From assembly GCA_016125185.1 (NCBI GenBank), contig WGMG01000009.1, forward strand, positions 98,314 to 162,313: a stretch of DNA of 64,000 nucleotides, written 5' to 3'. The notes below the pieces were generated by a model. That model saw nothing but the letters and a program-made list of their open reading frames with translations, had not been told where the DNA came from and did not search any database. This DNA is from Armatimonadota bacterium (GTDB taxonomy: Bacteria; Armatimonadota; Fimbriimonadia; Fimbriimonadales; Fimbriimonadaceae). The position numbers and the translations under genes are program-made. This document shows positions 19,504-25,283 of this stretch, piece after piece (position 1 is the first letter of the stretch; each line of letters starts with the position of its first letter).

Positions 19504-21522
19504 CTAAAAAGACCACACCATCTTCAAGGTCACCGACCGTTGCGTCGTCGGACTATTCGGATCACCCAACAACACGAACATGTCGTTCCCCTTCCGCGTC
19601 CGATGACCGTACGAGAAGTACACGTTGGTCTTGCTGCCCTGGCTCACCATGCGACCCCCGAAGCTTTGCAACGGGTCGATGCGATACGTCCCCGTCAGGA
19701 TCGTTTGTGTCTGACTGTCGGAACCCAGCCGCAGATCGCCAAAACTCAGATCGAAAGAGAGCTGTTTGTTGGCCGCAAAGCCCTGGTTCAGCGCGGTAAA
19801 CCGATACGGCATATCCTGCCTCCGCCCAAAGTCCACGCTCAAACTCCCTTTGCTCAAAAGGCTCTTTTGGTTCCACAAAACCTTGCCCGAGAGCGATCGA
19901 TCCGCGTACTTCTCGCGACTGCCGAGCGTTAGGTCGACCCCATATCCCATACCGTTGCGCATATCGAACTCGCTTCCGGCATAGATATACCGATGAAAGA
20001 ACGAACCATCACAGTGGTTAAAGCTACTACCACTCAGGTAGAAATTTCGCTTTTCCACCGCTCCGTGATCGTAAACGTTGAACGTATTCAAATTCATTCC
20101 CACACCTTGTGTATTTGTTTCGTCCACCAATCCCAACGGATTATCGAACCCCGCATCAGTCTTGACAACATACAAGTTCCCGTTCAATTGGCCCTTTCCG
20201 GCATATGTATTAACGTTTGCAAATAAGCTTTGACCATGCTGTCCATTCCCTAGCCAAGCCTGCGTCGCGTTGGAAAAGAATCGGACGTTACGCATTCCCT
20301 TCGCCCAACCATAATAGGCGCGAACCTGCGCCACTTCGCCCTCCGAACCCGTCTGGTGACTGCTCAAGAAAGTCCCGCCCATGCCTGAATACTGCCCAAA
20401 CTGCTGATCGAATGTCGCCACATTCGCACTCTGCTTGTCCCCAATCGAAGACGAAGTGGAAAGCAAACCTAGAGTCGTGGGACCGTTCTTACCTGCCACC
20501 TTCAACCCAAAATCAACGTCCGCGATTCGCTGCGAATAGAACAGGAAGGAGTCGTCGATCACACCTCCACCCTCGGCAAAGAACGGCCTTCGGTCGGGCA
20601 CATACTTCTCCGTGTACGAAAAACTAATGTCCTGAACCGCCCCCTCGACGGTCTGAAAGTCCGGCTTGACCGTCGCAACTCCCGTAATCGACGTCGTCAG
20701 CGGATACTTCACATCCATGCCAAAACGTGCCGAAGTTCCCTGTCCCGTCGTCGCGAGCATATAGGGCGATACCGTCGGCTTAGGCGCATAGTACGGAGGA
20801 TTGATATCGTCAAAGTCGGTGGCATATTGCGCAATGCTGCCGGTATCGCTCTGCGGCGGCATATACGGCCAGCATGTAAAGTTCGATTCGTCTGGCTTGC
20901 GTCGCGCCACGAACATTCCAAACGAGTGCGCCCCTTTCGGATAATGCAAGAGTCGAAAGGGAATCGACATCTCGGCGATCCAGCCGTCGTCGCATCGGCT
21001 CGTCGCCGCGTGCCAGTCGCCCTGCCACGCCTGATTGTCCGCCACGCCGCCTTCCATCTCCTGAAGTTGGGTTCCAATCGCGTTGACCCAAAAGGCGCTT
21101 GAGTCGTGATGGAGAGATTGACTGTCAATAACAACGACCACTCTCTCGTCCTGATTCAGGTTGCCGTTTCGCTGGGTCTCCTTTGCCAGGATCGTGGCAG
21201 GATTTCGGTCCGTGCAGTGGAAAGCGAAGTATAGATTCTCCTTGTCCGCGCACATCCAAACCTCGGTCTGGTCCATCACCGGGTCGTTACTTAAGAGCCG
21301 GAAAAACCCTTTCCCGTGCGTCGCCGCCTTCCAGCACGCGTCGTCCAATTTGCCATCGATCTTCGGTGCCTGGTTGGTGTGGGCCAACTTCATCCGCCCT
21401 CGGTGCCATTGCCCTGCGGGAGGCGATGGCCGCCCGATCTGCGCGCTAATATCCGCTTGCCCGAAGGCGTTCGCCGCCCCCAGGGCGGCGAACAAGAGGA
21501 GGATGAGTCTAGATCGTCGCAT
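19504..21522 (-). CDS. DUF5916 protein with CBM9-like domain, secreted
   Basis: 672 residues with a signal peptide (MRRSRLILLLFAALGAANAFG). Residues about 45-235 form a CBM9-like domain as in hydrolases annotated carbohydrate binding family 9 (APKIDGKLDDACWKAA, then NLYFAFHCTD, then MSIPFRLL). The rest is a beta-rich DUF5916 region ending in an aromatic residue after alternating strands (VTLKMVWSF), which suggests an outer-membrane beta-barrel. The start overlaps the stop of the upstream DUF4097-like gene by 14 bases, so it is probably the last gene of the BlaI/M56 operon. The role in the envelope is inferred from signals and fold only. Confidence 0.82.
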   Translation of the reverse strand: MRRSRLILLLFAALGAANAFGQADISAQIGRPSPPAGQWHRGRMKLAHTNQAPKIDGKLDDACWKAATHGKGFFRLLSNDPVMDQTEVWMCADKENLYFAFHCTDRNPATILAKETQRNGNLNQDERVVVVIDSQSLHHDSSAFWVNAIGTQLQEMEGGVADNQAWQGDWHAATSRCDDGWIAEMSIPFRLLHYPKGAHSFGMFVARRKPDESNFTCWPYMPPQSDTGSIAQYATDFDDINPPYYAPKPTVSPYMLATTGQGTSARFGMDVKYPLTTSITGVATVKPDFQTVEGAVQDISFSYTEKYVPDRRPFFAEGGGVIDDSFLFYSQRIADVDFGLKVAGKNGPTTLGLLSTSSSIGDKQSANVATFDQQFGQYSGMGGTFLSSHQTGSEGEVAQVRAYYGWAKGMRNVRFFSNATQAWLGNGQHGQSLFANVNTYAGKGQLNGNLYVVKTDAGFDNPLGLVDETNTQGVGMNLNTFNVYDHGAVEKRNFYLSGSSFNHCDGSFFHRYIYAGSEFDMRNGMGYGVDLTLGSREKYADRSLSGKVLWNQKSLLSKGSLSVDFGRRQDMPYRFTALNQGFAANKQLSFDLSFGDLRLGSDSQTQTILTGTYRIDPLQSFGGRMVSQGSKTNVYFSYGHRTRKGNDMFVLLGDPNSPTTQRSVTLKMVWSF

Positions 21523-22912
21523 CCGTATCGCCCTTCGAGTCCTTCTTCAGGTTCTTCTCCATTTCCTTTTGGGCTTTTTCCATCGCTTTGCGAGCGGCTT
21601 CCATGGCTTTGCGAGTGATCGCTTCGATGTCGATCTTGATATCCTTTTGATCCCGCATCTGCGCCTTCATGTCCTTTTGAGCTCGCTCGACTTCCTTCAT
21701 CGCTTCGGCCATGGCCTTTTGCGCTTCTTTCATCGCGTCGCGGGTCATGGCGGCAATGTCGGCATCACTCATTCGCTTGCCATCCATCTCGAGCTTGATC
21801 TGGCCCTTGGCCTTCTCAACTTCCTTCTTGGCCTCTTCGATGGCTTTCTGGGCTTCCTTCATGGCATCGCGGATCGCTGACTTCACGTCGTCGCCGCTCA
21901 GCCTCTTGCCGTCCTGGTCGATCTCGATATCATCCCCGATATGCTCCATCGACTTGGCTGCGATCGACATGGCCGACTCAATGGTCTTGCTCAGATCCTG
22001 GCCGAGATCGCCGTCCGAGTCGATATCAATGTCGAGATTCAGGTCGCCGCCAGTATCGAACCGCTTCTCCGTCTTACCTTGGCTCAGGTTGATCGACCCG
22101 GTATCGACATTCAGCTTAAGGTTCGTTCCGCCCGATCCGACTCGAATGGTCTGATGCGCGCCGAGGCCCTTCTTCTTGTCGCTCGACTCGCCCGACACCT
22201 CGATATTTCCAATCCCAACCTGAGCATCTACACTTGCGTTACCCTTCAGGTCCAGCGAAATCTGGCCGACCCCAACGTCCAACTTGGAATCGCTGGACGG
22301 CGTCTTGGCAAGTTTCGCGTCGATCTCGCCCGCGCCGACGTTCATGTCCACAAACCGATCGCTGGACAGATTAACGGTCTCAAGCTGACCGGCGTCGACC
22401 TTCGACTTCAGTGACCGATAATCGCCTTCGATATGGACGGTGCCCGCATCGAGTTCAATGTCGGCGTCTAGCCCTCGCGGAACCGTAATTTCGATCTTGA
22501 TCTTCAGGTTGTGATTCTTCTTCGTCGAATTCGAGAAGAACTTCGGTCGGTCATTCGGCAACTCTTCGACAACAAGGTCGTCGCCCGAGCGCTTCGCTTG
22601 AATCCAGTGGCTGTCCAGCCACTTTCGCTCGTCGGCATCAACCGGCTTGCTGACTTCCTTGGTGATCTCGGCCGTCAGGTTAGACGTCGCGCCGCTCTTG
22701 ATGACGACCTCGCCAAGGGTCAGGTTCACCCGGAGTCGATGCGCTCCTCCCGCGGTGACGTTGAGGACCGAATGGTTCGTCTCACGGTCGTCGGAGGTGG
22801 GAAGCGCATATTGATGGTCAGAGGAGTCGCTGGCGATCTGGGCTCGGGCAATCGAGAGCCCGGCCAAGCCAACCGTGGCGAGTCCGATGATGAATGCTGT
22901 GGATTTGGTCAT
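21509..22912 (-). CDS. secreted DUF4097-like adhesin repeat protein with C-terminal coiled coil
   Basis: 467 residues with signal peptide (MTKSTAFIIGLATVGLAGLSIARA) and a strong AGGAG ribosome-binding site. Residues about 40-290 are beta-repeat sequence of the DUF4097 kind (LDADIELDAGTVHIEGDY, DVGVGQISLDLKGN, NLKLNVDTGSINLS). Residues about 330-460 form a long amphipathic coiled coil made of related blocks such as DAMKEAQKAIEEAKKEVEKA and DAMKEAQKAMAEAMKEVERA, very rich in Ala, Lys, Glu and Met. The upstream M56 protein has a similar extracytoplasmic coiled coil, so the two may bind each other. Probably co-transcribed with blaI/M56 genes 100 bases upstream. Confidence 0.8.
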   Translation of the reverse strand: MTKSTAFIIGLATVGLAGLSIARAQIASDSSDHQYALPTSDDRETNHSVLNVTAGGAHRLRVNLTLGEVVIKSGATSNLTAEITKEVSKPVDADERKWLDSHWIQAKRSGDDLVVEELPNDRPKFFSNSTKKNHNLKIKIEITVPRGLDADIELDAGTVHIEGDYRSLKSKVDAGQLETVNLSSDRFVDMNVGAGEIDAKLAKTPSSDSKLDVGVGQISLDLKGNASVDAQVGIGNIEVSGESSDKKKGLGAHQTIRVGSGGTNLKLNVDTGSINLSQGKTEKRFDTGGDLNLDIDIDSDGDLGQDLSKTIESAMSIAAKSMEHIGDDIEIDQDGKRLSGDDVKSAIRDAMKEAQKAIEEAKKEVEKAKGQIKLEMDGKRMSDADIAAMTRDAMKEAQKAMAEAMKEVERAQKDMKAQMRDQKDIKIDIEAITRKAMEAARKAMEKAQKEMEKNLKKDSKGDTDATI

Positions 22913-23010
22913 TTGTCTAATCTCCTTCTCTGGTCAAATCGTTAATTTCGGGCAAAGCGGTAGCTAAGGGGTCAATGCCCTGGGTTGTTTTTGAGTTGGT
23001 TCAGGCTAAG

Positions 23011-24717
23011 CTACTTTTTGCCCTTATCCTCGGAACCTTTGGCGTCCTTCGAGTCTTTCGAAACCTTGTCCGGTTTTGGCTTTGGCTTCGCCCCGTCGGC
23101 GGTCGCGTCATTCGGAATCTTGATGTCGATGTTGAGGTTCTTGGTGAAATCGCCCACCATCTTCAACGACATATCCGCGATCCCCTTGGCGAACTTCATC
23201 GAGGCCTTGGCGATCGCCTTCTGATCGACACCCATCTTCGCGTTGTCGATCTCCTTTTGGGCTTCTCGAATCTGCTTCTCCGCATCCTTTTGGGCGGCCT
23301 CGATCTGCTGGCGAACCTCGGGGTTAGCATTCGTCTTCGCTTCCGCGAACGACTGGCGCATTTCCCTCATCGCCGATTGAACATCGGCGCTGGCGTGGGC
23401 GATATCGTCGTCGTCCATCGAGATCGTGTGCCCCTGGCCATCCGAAATCCGCATGGAATTGCGATGTCCGTCGCCAGAAGTCGTCATGCTGACCGAACCG
23501 TTCGTCTTCGAATTCGTCGATGTTGAGATATTGGGACCAGTGCTGGCTTGAAGCGAAGCTGGTTCGTGAGGATTCACAGGCGTTACGGGCGGAGCCGTAG
23601 ACGTTTCCGTACGGTGATCAACGATCTGAGGATCGTTGACCGAAGCAGTCGGTGGGTTCACCTCATCAGACCCTTTCCAGTCCACCGTCCCGACCGAAGA
23701 GTCGAAATCTTTATTGAGAGTTTCGTCCGCTGGCTGAACCGGCGTCTTCGATTCCATATTGTCGGCGACAGGCATCATGATCGGGACGATCTGCCGGAAC
23801 GGCATCACAAAACCGGCCGCAAAAACCCCCGACAGCAACGGGCCGATCACAATCGTCCGCTTCCAACCTCGGATAGGACCGCGAGGAGTCCGTTCACTGA
23901 GGATGGCTCGCAGACGACCCTTCAGTCGTGGGCTTCGCGCCATCGTCACCGCTGGCAATCGCCCCGCCTGCGGTCGAAGCGACTTGGCTACTTCGAGAAT
24001 CCGCTCCGCGTACTCGGGAGCGTCAAAACCTTGGGCCAACACCAAGTCGTCGGCGGCCCGCTCGCTATCCTGCTCGAATAGCGCACGAAGCGCCCAGACG
24101 AGCGGATTGAACCAATACACCGCGCTCACGGCCCGGAAGCCAATCGACGTCGCCCAATCTCGGCGACGAATGTGCGCGTCTTCGTGCAGAACGACCGACC
24201 GGAACTGCGCCTCCGCCCAAGATTCCGATTCGTGCGGAAGTGCGATTCGCGGGTTCGTCACGCCCCACGTCATCGGTGGTTCGCCTTCTGGGCAAAGAAA
24301 GATGCGTCGTGCCCGCGCCGTCAGACCCTTGACCCGTTCAACCAAGGCGTGGGGTGCCGGTTCGAGACCGCGCTCGACCCTTCGAAATCGAGCAAGGACT
24401 ACGGCAACTCGAACCAGCAGAAGAGCCGCAATCACGACCCAACACCAACCCCATCCTAGAGAAATCCCGGCGCTAGCCGGGAGTTCGCTTGTAGAGGTCA
24501 AAGACGGATTCACCAGGACTTCGGTTTTGCCAATCGCGATTGGAAGGCGAGGTAGAAGCGCCATCGCCAGCGGCAATACCGCCAACGCAACCATCGTAAT
24601 AGCGAGCACCTTCGCCCGGGCTTGGGCCGACGAACGAATGAGTGCGAATCGGACGATCAGCCCCAGACTGGCGAGGATGACGGACCGAACGGCGAGTTCA
24701 ACAACGAACGCGTTCAT
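23011..24717 (-). CDS. M56 (BlaR1/MecR1-type) membrane metalloprotease with coiled-coil sensor region
   Basis: 568 residues. Membrane segments lie near residues 8-28, 38-58, 88-110 and 190-210. The zinc protease motif HEDAH is at 178-182, followed by NPLVWALRALFEQDSERAADD, which holds the third ligand glutamate. A further hydrophobic segment near 280-310 leads to a C-terminal tail of about 230 residues. In BlaR1 that tail is a penicillin-binding sensor; here it is a low-complexity linker followed by a coiled coil (REMRQSFAEAKTNANPEVRQ) and a Lys/Asp-rich end, so it does not sense beta-lactam the same way. Known relatives cleave the partner BlaI repressor. It overlaps blaI by four bases (ATGA), proving tight coupling. 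Confidence 0.88.
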   Translation of the reverse strand: MNAFVVELAVRSVILASLGLIVRFALIRSSAQARAKVLAITMVALAVLPLAMALLPRLPIAIGKTEVLVNPSLTSTSELPASAGISLGWGWCWVVIAALLLVRVAVVLARFRRVERGLEPAPHALVERVKGLTARARRIFLCPEGEPPMTWGVTNPRIALPHESESWAEAQFRSVVLHEDAHIRRRDWATSIGFRAVSAVYWFNPLVWALRALFEQDSERAADDLVLAQGFDAPEYAERILEVAKSLRPQAGRLPAVTMARSPRLKGRLRAILSERTPRGPIRGWKRTIVIGPLLSGVFAAGFVMPFRQIVPIMMPVADNMESKTPVQPADETLNKDFDSSVGTVDWKGSDEVNPPTASVNDPQIVDHRTETSTAPPVTPVNPHEPASLQASTGPNISTSTNSKTNGSVSMTTSGDGHRNSMRISDGQGHTISMDDDDIAHASADVQSAMREMRQSFAEAKTNANPEVRQQIEAAQKDAEKQIREAQKEIDNAKMGVDQKAIAKASMKFAKGIADMSLKMVGDFTKNLNIDIKIPNDATADGAKPKPKPDKVSKDSKDAKGSEDKGKK

Positions 24718-25109
24718 GATGGCTTTTGGCTCCTTTTAGCTTCTAAGATCAGCTTAGCTAACTGATCCAACTCTTCGTTCGAAATATTGGTTTCCGCATC
24801 GGAAAGGAATGTGCGGACAACACCCTCGATCCTTCCCCCAAAGAAGGTATCGACCACTTTGTGGACCGCGCTCTTAGCGGCATCTTGAGTGGATTCGGCG
24901 GCGCTGTACAGGTATCGCTTGCCGTCTTCCTGGTGGAGGGCAATGCCCTTCTCCACCAGGATTCCAAGCGTGGATCGGACAGAGGAATACGACGGCGGGT
25001 TCTCCATCTCATCGCAAACTTCCTGAACGCTCGCCCTGCCCAGCCGGTGGAGAATATCAAGAATCTCCCGCTCGCGGCGGCTGAGTCCCGACCCGAGCAT
25101 CCTAGGCAT
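24714..25109 (-). CDS. BlaI/MecI/CopY-family transcriptional repressor
   Basis: 131 residues from ATG 25109 (MPRMLGSGLSRREREILDIL). The frame is open to 25160, but that would overrun the candidate operator and exceed family length. The winged-helix DNA-binding region covers the first 75 residues (REREILDILHRLGRASVQEV, then YSSVRSTLGILVEKG, then KRYLYSA). The dimerisation and cleavage region follows (AVHKVVDTFFGGR). BlaI-type repressors bind an inverted repeat in front of their own operon and are released when the cognate M56 protease cuts them. The next gene on the strand is that protease, sharing ATGA. It is the first gene of a probable four-gene operon. Confidence 0.92.
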   Translation of the reverse strand: MPRMLGSGLSRREREILDILHRLGRASVQEVCDEMENPPSYSSVRSTLGILVEKGIALHQEDGKRYLYSAAESTQDAAKSAVHKVVDTFFGGRIEGVVRTFLSDAETNISNEELDQLAKLILEAKRSQKPS

Positions 25110-25129
25110 GCGCACGCTCCGAAAATTGT

Positions 25130-25155
25130 AACATGCTGAAAGATTAGCACATGTT
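25130..25155 (-). promoter_or_regulatory. candidate BlaI-type operator
   Basis: Imperfect inverted repeat with arms AACATG (25130-25135) and CATGTT (25150-25155), 21 to 46 bases upstream of the chosen blaI start. The position is right for autoregulation. The arms do not follow the TACA/TGTA consensus of staphylococcal operators exactly, so this rests on symmetry and position. Confidence 0.45.
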
Positions 25156-25283
25156 TCCATGAGATGTGTTAAGAAAGTGCGAAATTTTCCGCACTTTGGT
25201 TGCAGGTCGTGGAAAAAGTCCCGCTTTGAACCTAAAAAGCTACGGCCTTCACACTCCTATAAGATTCACCAACGCCTCCTCTT

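Follow-up and report, generated by a model that had tools for sequence, protein, structure and literature searches.

Among described regulatory systems, the closest to the locus analyzed here are BlaR1–BlaI and MecR1–MecI of Staphylococcus, in which, as in this locus, blaI adjoins a gene for an M56 metalloprotease with HExxH and ExxxD motifs; the BlaI or MecI repressor of S. aureus is cleaved at an Asn-Phe site, with Phe at P1′ (available part of PMC9834060). The Toastrack stress proteins (DUF4097/DUF2154/DUF2807), with their LiaF/LiaG and phage shock protein (PSP) partners, offer a second point of comparison, as they have the same beta-helix fold as one product of this locus and are likewise linked to membrane regulators (available part of PMC11237479). 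The locus lies in a window of 64,000 nucleotides, the whole stretch of DNA that was analyzed, from an Armatimonadota bacterium of the family Fimbriimonadaceae (assembly GCA_016125185.1, contig WGMG01000009.1, positions 98,314 to 162,313), and consists of four minus-strand genes in the order blaI, M56, Toastrack partner and DUF5916, here called the cassette. In window coordinates, its features are as follows:

25178..25193, minus strand: distal BlaI-type dyad TGCGGAAAATTTCGCA, 84 bp upstream of the probable start of blaI
25134..25149, minus strand: proximal BlaI-type dyad TGCTAATCTTTCAGCA, 40 bp upstream of the probable start of blaI; the same dyad type lies upstream of blaI in other phyla
24714..25109 (listed open reading frame to 25160), minus strand: BlaI-family repressor, Pfam PF03965 (Penicillinase_R), 1.3e-24
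23011..24717, minus strand: M56 metalloprotease of the BlaR1 type without a penicillin-binding domain, Pfam PF05569 (Peptidase_M56), 9.2e-24
24172..24186, minus strand: HExxH zinc motif HEDAH, residues 178–182 (motif definition from the available part of PMC9834060)
23137..23409, minus strand: helical/coiled-coil M56 tail, residues 437–527 (model m7217df5373a3), 32.1 bits to the partner-coil profile
21509..22912, minus strand: secreted Toastrack and coiled-coil partner, 467 aa, adjoining M56 in 6/6 cassette genomes
22061..22786, minus strand: Toastrack (DUF4097-type) beta-helix, residues 43–284, structural matches 3PET, 4QRK and 4OPW
21536..22006, minus strand: partner coiled-coil tail, residues 303–459, model helices at a low predicted local distance difference test score (pLDDT), helical periodicity 3.58
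19504..21522, minus strand: DUF5916 protein, probable outer-membrane protein, Pfam PF19313, 5.3e-11

On balance, the cassette is best read as a repressor-cleavage switch of the BlaR1/BlaI type in which the penicillin sensor would be replaced by a periplasmic coiled-coil tail, read through a secreted partner whose own coil is of the same family. The coordinates of the open reading frames (ORFs) bear out the order of the four genes, and the overlaps at both ends, that the original prediction had claimed: blaI and the M56 gene overlap by 4 bp, the partner and DUF5916 genes overlap by 14 bp, and a gap of 98 bp separates the M56 and partner genes. The span that it assigned to the unit, 21509–25160, covers three of the genes but leaves DUF5916 outside, and the compactness that it stressed holds for both overlaps in the window, but of the relatives only the closest shares the last of them. 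No conserved element was seen in the M56–partner gap (96–114 bp), promoter and terminator scans remained at chance level, and no Rfam family was found.

The M56 tail and the partner coil, judged by their sequences, are specifically similar beyond composition. Searched with a profile built from the six partner coils, the M56 tail of the window reaches 32.1 bits, and four of the six tails of this kind score above the highest of 1,200 shuffles (14.0). In the reciprocal direction, with a profile built from the M56 tails, every one of the six partner coils outscores all 1,200 shuffles (top score 6.6) and all 780 background proteins (top score 9.5); reversed tails score 0.3–11.5 in these tests. The likeness of the two coils goes further than the similar composition originally noted for them. 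Coil periodicity is present in all six partners, with 0 of 300 shuffles as strong, and, with p values of at most 0.013, in the M56 tails of five of the genomes, that of L048 showing no significant helical periodicity (p 0.207). Coil similarity alone is no proof of pairing.

The repressor is, by sequence, a member of the BlaI/MecI family (87.2 bits for Penicillinase_R against a Pfam cut-off of 22.6) with a candidate cleavable site that has Phe at P1′, as a Thr-Phe pair, conserved in 6/6 cassette genomes, falls on the S. aureus Asn101/Phe102 cut in an alignment to MecI/BlaI. Its true start is probably at 25109 (MPRM) and not at 25160, because the longer ORF runs over the proximal operator dyad. 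Two tandem 16-bp dyads precede blaI in all six cassette genomes, with a start-to-start distance of 44 bp in four and 42 bp in two; they begin 82–85 and 40–41 bp before the assigned blaI start in five of the six, the start in L046 being uncertain. Their commonest form is TGCTAA-N4-TTAGCA, and such a dyad is found near 27 of the 70 BlaI genes across phyla that have enough upstream sequence, against 0.014 per stretch predicted by the overall rate; five of these 27 loci are the cassettes that supplied the pattern, and L098 and L150, both counted, represent one contig. Among 52 dyad sites in the surveyed loci, 38 are near a called BlaI start and 14 are elsewhere, the latter including one where a DUF5916 gene begins (L130) and two ahead of an M56 gene (L128). 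A search of the own genome for a further regulon member found none, with the degenerate dyad pattern occurring at five distinct places (two in the cassette, three inside ORFs); a reversed control pattern gave one match there, and 13 matches in six genomes against 40 for the real pattern. In Poribacteria, dyads also stand before other genes (L112:3097 and 3140, L136:2509), the one in L112 (559 aa) sharing the M56 tail domain, and it is possible from this placement that these genes are regulon members.

The metalloprotease carries, besides HEDAH, an ExxxD motif at residues 219–223 (E219 and D223), and the H, E, H, E and D residues are invariant across six homologues. Of the solved structures, S. 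aureus BlaR1 is the closest to it (profile to 8EXS, 2.8e-12; model to 8EXQ, E 2.6e-3), and helices at residues 2–25, 31–54, 87–116 and 285–303, seen in the model only, may be set against the four transmembrane helices of BlaR1. No clear Ser-Phe is present in the stretch aligned to the BlaR1 autocleavage site Ser283/Phe284, where the alignment is weak. Past the peptidase part, the model shows a long low-confidence linker followed by the three helices of residues 437–527 (pLDDT about 58–74); the tail contains no domain above the Pfam cut-off and no transpeptidase or beta-lactamase domain at E ≤ 0.1, which agrees with the initial view that it is a coiled coil and not a penicillin-binding domain. 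Another M56 gene of the same genome (L094:3661-7080) encodes a very long charged helical tail, has no blaI directly before it, and is followed by genes that resemble, by eye, those for a sigma factor and an anti-sigma factor.

A signal peptide is apparent by eye in the partner, the model of which contains a confident beta-helix at residues 43–220 (pLDDT about 70–96 except for a ten-residue block at 51). Structural comparison by VIA-align matched it to 3PET (Z 14.6), 4QRK (Z 14.1 over 160 residues) and 4OPW (Z 13.4 over 197), and Foldseek to 4QRK (3.5e-7); all three are Toastrack/putative-adhesin structures, and 4QRK and 4OPW, with which the partner shares a right-handed beta-helix, are named as Toastrack examples in the available part of PMC11237479. 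Pfam DUF4097 gave no match to the window partner at E ≤ 1 and none to the six members among the matches listed (best 25 of 46 families), among which LiaF-like_C reached 0.15 in one of the six, while purpose-built Toastrack profiles gave matches at 1e-10 to 1e-17 in small sequence sets. The Toastrack label therefore rests on the fold and the purpose-built profiles, and the earlier term DUF4097-like is justified at the level of fold (3PET, 4QRK and 4OPW) but not by a Pfam DUF4097 match.

Matches to the M56 protein (E ≤ 1e-40) and to the partner (E ≤ 1e-19) were confined to one set of six among the 85 family genomes, and these six belong to a single genus. In all six, blaI, M56 and Toastrack follow in order, with mostly differing flanks, so that the gene order is kept above chance. 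DUF5916 comes next in five, and the sixth, G019, retains the C-terminal 49 residues of DUF5916 directly behind the partner gene:

L048:11232-11378, equivalent to G019:C99:25231-25377: DUF5916 remnant after the Toastrack partner gene

Separation of the four genes in relatives, which had been named as the outcome that would count against a functional unit, was accordingly not what the relatives showed. The five cassette DUF5916 proteins also group apart from others (E ≤ 1e-184 among them, next 4e-75). Wider searches of 113 and 291 genomes yielded no further cassette (phylum total 6/291), and an initial scan of genome contigs with the partner protein yielded no relative. Purpose-built Toastrack profiles (E ≤ 1e-3) found no Toastrack within the available stretch of 80 M56 loci from other genomes, nor did any of ten additional stretches, taken around other M56 genes from the own genome and related ones, show a Toastrack-coil partner. 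Because the wider searches and the 80 M56 loci yielded none, the coil version looks confined to one genus. Pairs of a DUF2089-like helix-turn-helix (HTH) protein and an apparently cytoplasmic Toastrack protein were observed in the same phylum (L080, L081, L083, L085, L087 and L088).

Sharing of a tail between an M56 protein and its neighbor is seen in other phyla. Named genomes were scanned with an M56 profile and 80 loci were kept; 76 M56 tails of at least 60 residues, from 75 loci, were tested at a sharing cut-off of E ≤ 1e-4, four tails having no same-strand neighbor. A same-strand neighbor shares the M56 tail in 13 of the 75 loci, compared with a mean of 1.2 and a maximum of 5 in 1,000 permuted neighbor sets; two of the 13 are to be discounted, as the neighbors in L122 and L132 are short, perhaps decayed copies of M56 tails, and several Poribacteria loci in the survey are mutually related. 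The matching tails, which occupy 5 of 30 clusters, belong to types unrelated to one another (named by eye). Acidobacteria L149 and Pyrinomonadaceae L170 have repeats of about 35 residues, Longimicrobiaceae L130 has SSSDK repeats, and Poribacteria have thioredoxin-like domains with a WCxxC stretch (by eye); other types occur as well. In addition, all five Sphingopyxis loci (L183:5989-10654, L172, L174, L176 and L181), which were added by eye outside the 13/75 and confirmed afterwards by blastp, contain blaI, an M56 gene with a repeat tail, a secreted partner that carries the repeats of this tail, and a large downstream ORF; blastp of each M56 tail against its own partner gave 3.4e-5 to 1.7e-12, and the one large ORF tested, that of L183, matched a TonB plug at 5.3e-10. 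Because the ORF picker overlooked the Sphingopyxis partners, other partners may have been missed too. In Longimicrobiaceae L130:4984-11430, blaI, M56 and a secreted protein with matching repeats are followed by DUF5916 (3.9e-55), whose start bears the separate BlaI-type dyad mentioned above (8777). By gene content, then, the layout of blaI, M56, matching partner and outer-membrane-type gene recurs in Longimicrobiaceae and Sphingopyxis. M56 followed directly by DUF5916, with no partner between them, was observed in L167:635-5895 and L169:3-3853.

A mechanism consistent with these features can be outlined. BlaI dimers bound at both tandem dyads would keep the entire operon repressed, and the M56 protein, by homology to BlaR1, would cross the inner membrane so that its zinc site faces the cytoplasm and its tail lies on the outer side. 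The Toastrack partner would bind this tail by its own coil, and its beta-helix would contact some part of the envelope, for which the DUF5916 outer-membrane protein is a candidate; once the envelope changes, the contact between partner and tail would be altered, so that M56 cuts BlaI and the operon is induced, and the extra partner and outer-membrane protein would reset the switch. That the partner restrains M56 rather than activating it is a guess. By analogy, the Toastrack fold and its published contexts suggest envelope stress as the signal (available part of PMC11237479). The original prediction of an envelope-stress sensor, with paired coils that control BlaI cleavage, is thus supported in part. 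The related loci in other phyla are likely to follow the same logic with other tail types. A broader proposal, offered tentatively and with less confidence than the reading of the cassette itself, is that these loci represent undescribed and widespread trans-envelope switches, in which homotypic tail pairing would set the cleavage of BlaI and hence the level of an outer-membrane protein, the tails (coiled coils, SSSDK and helical repeats of about 35 residues) being exchanged together between lineages.

Several observations weigh against a switch based on matched tails. The partner helices at residues 303–459 reach a pLDDT of only about 50, the M56 tails of L045 and L047 fail to exceed the best shuffle with the partner-coil profile, the window's own tail–partner pair gave no blastp report at E ≤ 1e-3, and the lengths of the two tails do not covary across the six genomes (by eye). 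The top background protein for the coil profile is itself an M56 coil tail, that of L102:378-2210 (G027), which scores 34.8 bits, above the 32.1 bits of the window tail, and has no Toastrack neighbor. In the wider survey, 62 of the 75 loci have no matching neighbor, and all but one of 95 tail–neighbor matches between different loci lie inside a tail cluster.

Such observations leave room for an explanation in which the partner and the outer-membrane protein are outputs only, BlaI–M56 senses by its own tail, and the duplicated coil serves oligomerization or envelope attachment. Control of the operon by tandem dyads suits an output role, coiled coils are common oligomerization modules, and the shared thioredoxin-like WCxxC domains of Poribacteria could act separately; however, unrelated tail types match their neighbors in different phyla too often for chance duplication of a module, and this explanation is considered unlikely, although it is the strongest of the alternatives. 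Somewhat less likely is a trans-envelope relay with the DUF5916 or TonB-type protein as its receptor and the partner as a bridge to the M56 tail, in the manner of FecA–FecR, where an outer-membrane protein, a periplasmic contact and an inner-membrane regulator that signals to sigma factors are encoded in one operon. The cassette DUF5916 product (PF19313, 42.4 bits against a cut-off of 22.6) is a probable outer-membrane protein, but at most a candidate for the barrel named in the original prediction (strand-alternation test p 0.076; C-terminal Phe present); it has a weak N-terminal CBM9_1 match (7.8e-4, below that family's own cut-off) and no solved relative at E ≤ 1, and DUF5916 was not mentioned in the literature searched. 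The last gene of the unit is a probable outer-membrane gene in the cassette, in L130 and in Sphingopyxis, and DUF5916 lies directly behind M56 in L167 and L169, as a relay would predict, whereas G019 has lost most of DUF5916 while retaining the first three genes, the L149 and L170 stretches contain no outer-membrane-type gene, and DUF5916 occurs in 76 of the 85 family genomes, mostly without a cassette. That the genes are chance neighbors sharing nothing beyond co-transcription, as the narrow distribution (6/291 phylum genomes) might suggest, is improbable given an order kept amid mostly differing flanks, the G019 remnant, the cassette-specific DUF5916 group and the reappearance of the layout in other loci. 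Least credible is a beta-lactam resistance sensor of the ordinary kind whose penicillin domain has diverged, since BlaI and M56 do belong to that protein family but the tail lacks any such domain at the threshold given above and no other cassette protein is a beta-lactamase by Pfam.

The preferred reading, a repressor-cleavage switch with a matched coil partner, bears on a wider problem, in that BlaI–M56 pairs reach far beyond antibiotic resistance and we know of no established answer as to how pairs without a penicillin sensor receive their signal. The layout suggests a little-known route from the state of the envelope to a gene repressor, the matched tail provides a concrete and testable rule (a secreted neighbor with the same tail is to be sought), the common dyad type permits regulon prediction across phyla, and the Sphingopyxis loci bring the layout to a cultured group, as a more tractable version. 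No description of the BlaI–M56–Toastrack combination or of tail matching was recognized, by title and abstract, in the literature searched, most subscription journals lying outside it; PMC12578637 was rejected as a relevant paper, its word matches to ‘blaI’ and ‘M56’ not being those proteins.

Compared with FecA–FecR, the cassette has a protease and a cleavable repressor in place of an anti-sigma factor; no homology was found, none having been sought. Its dyads are of the TGCTAA-N4-TTAGCA type, and no matching operator description was seen in the available part of PMC8457756. In comparison with staphylococcal BlaI, the cassette repressor keeps Phe at the cut position, and the C-terminal part of the M56 protein would here be extracytoplasmic. 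The Toastrack protein of the cassette differs from the described ones in being secreted, in having a C-terminal coil and in standing with M56–BlaI instead of a two-component system, PspC or LiaI-LiaF-TM; published Toastrack domains are argued to be intracellular (available part of PMC11237479, the main text of which contains neither ‘M56’ nor ‘BlaI’), whereas the cassette partner has its apparent signal peptide. DUF2089 and its link to Toastrack have already been published (available part of PMC11237479), and the DUF2089–Toastrack pairs of the same phylum (DUF2089 assigned by eye) resemble the cassette in placing Toastrack beside an HTH protein, but differ in that they show no signal peptide, an N-terminal helical part, no M56 and no tail match. 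Unlike BlaR1 and MecR1, the cassette has no penicillin-binding sensor, and a coil tail, a secreted coil partner and an outer-membrane-type protein are found in the operon instead. Because the defining sensor domain is missing, it is not called a BlaR1, but it is likely to work like one; the BlaI and M56 families and the Toastrack fold are already known, and what appears to be new, going by the literature searched, is their combination, together with the matching of the tails.

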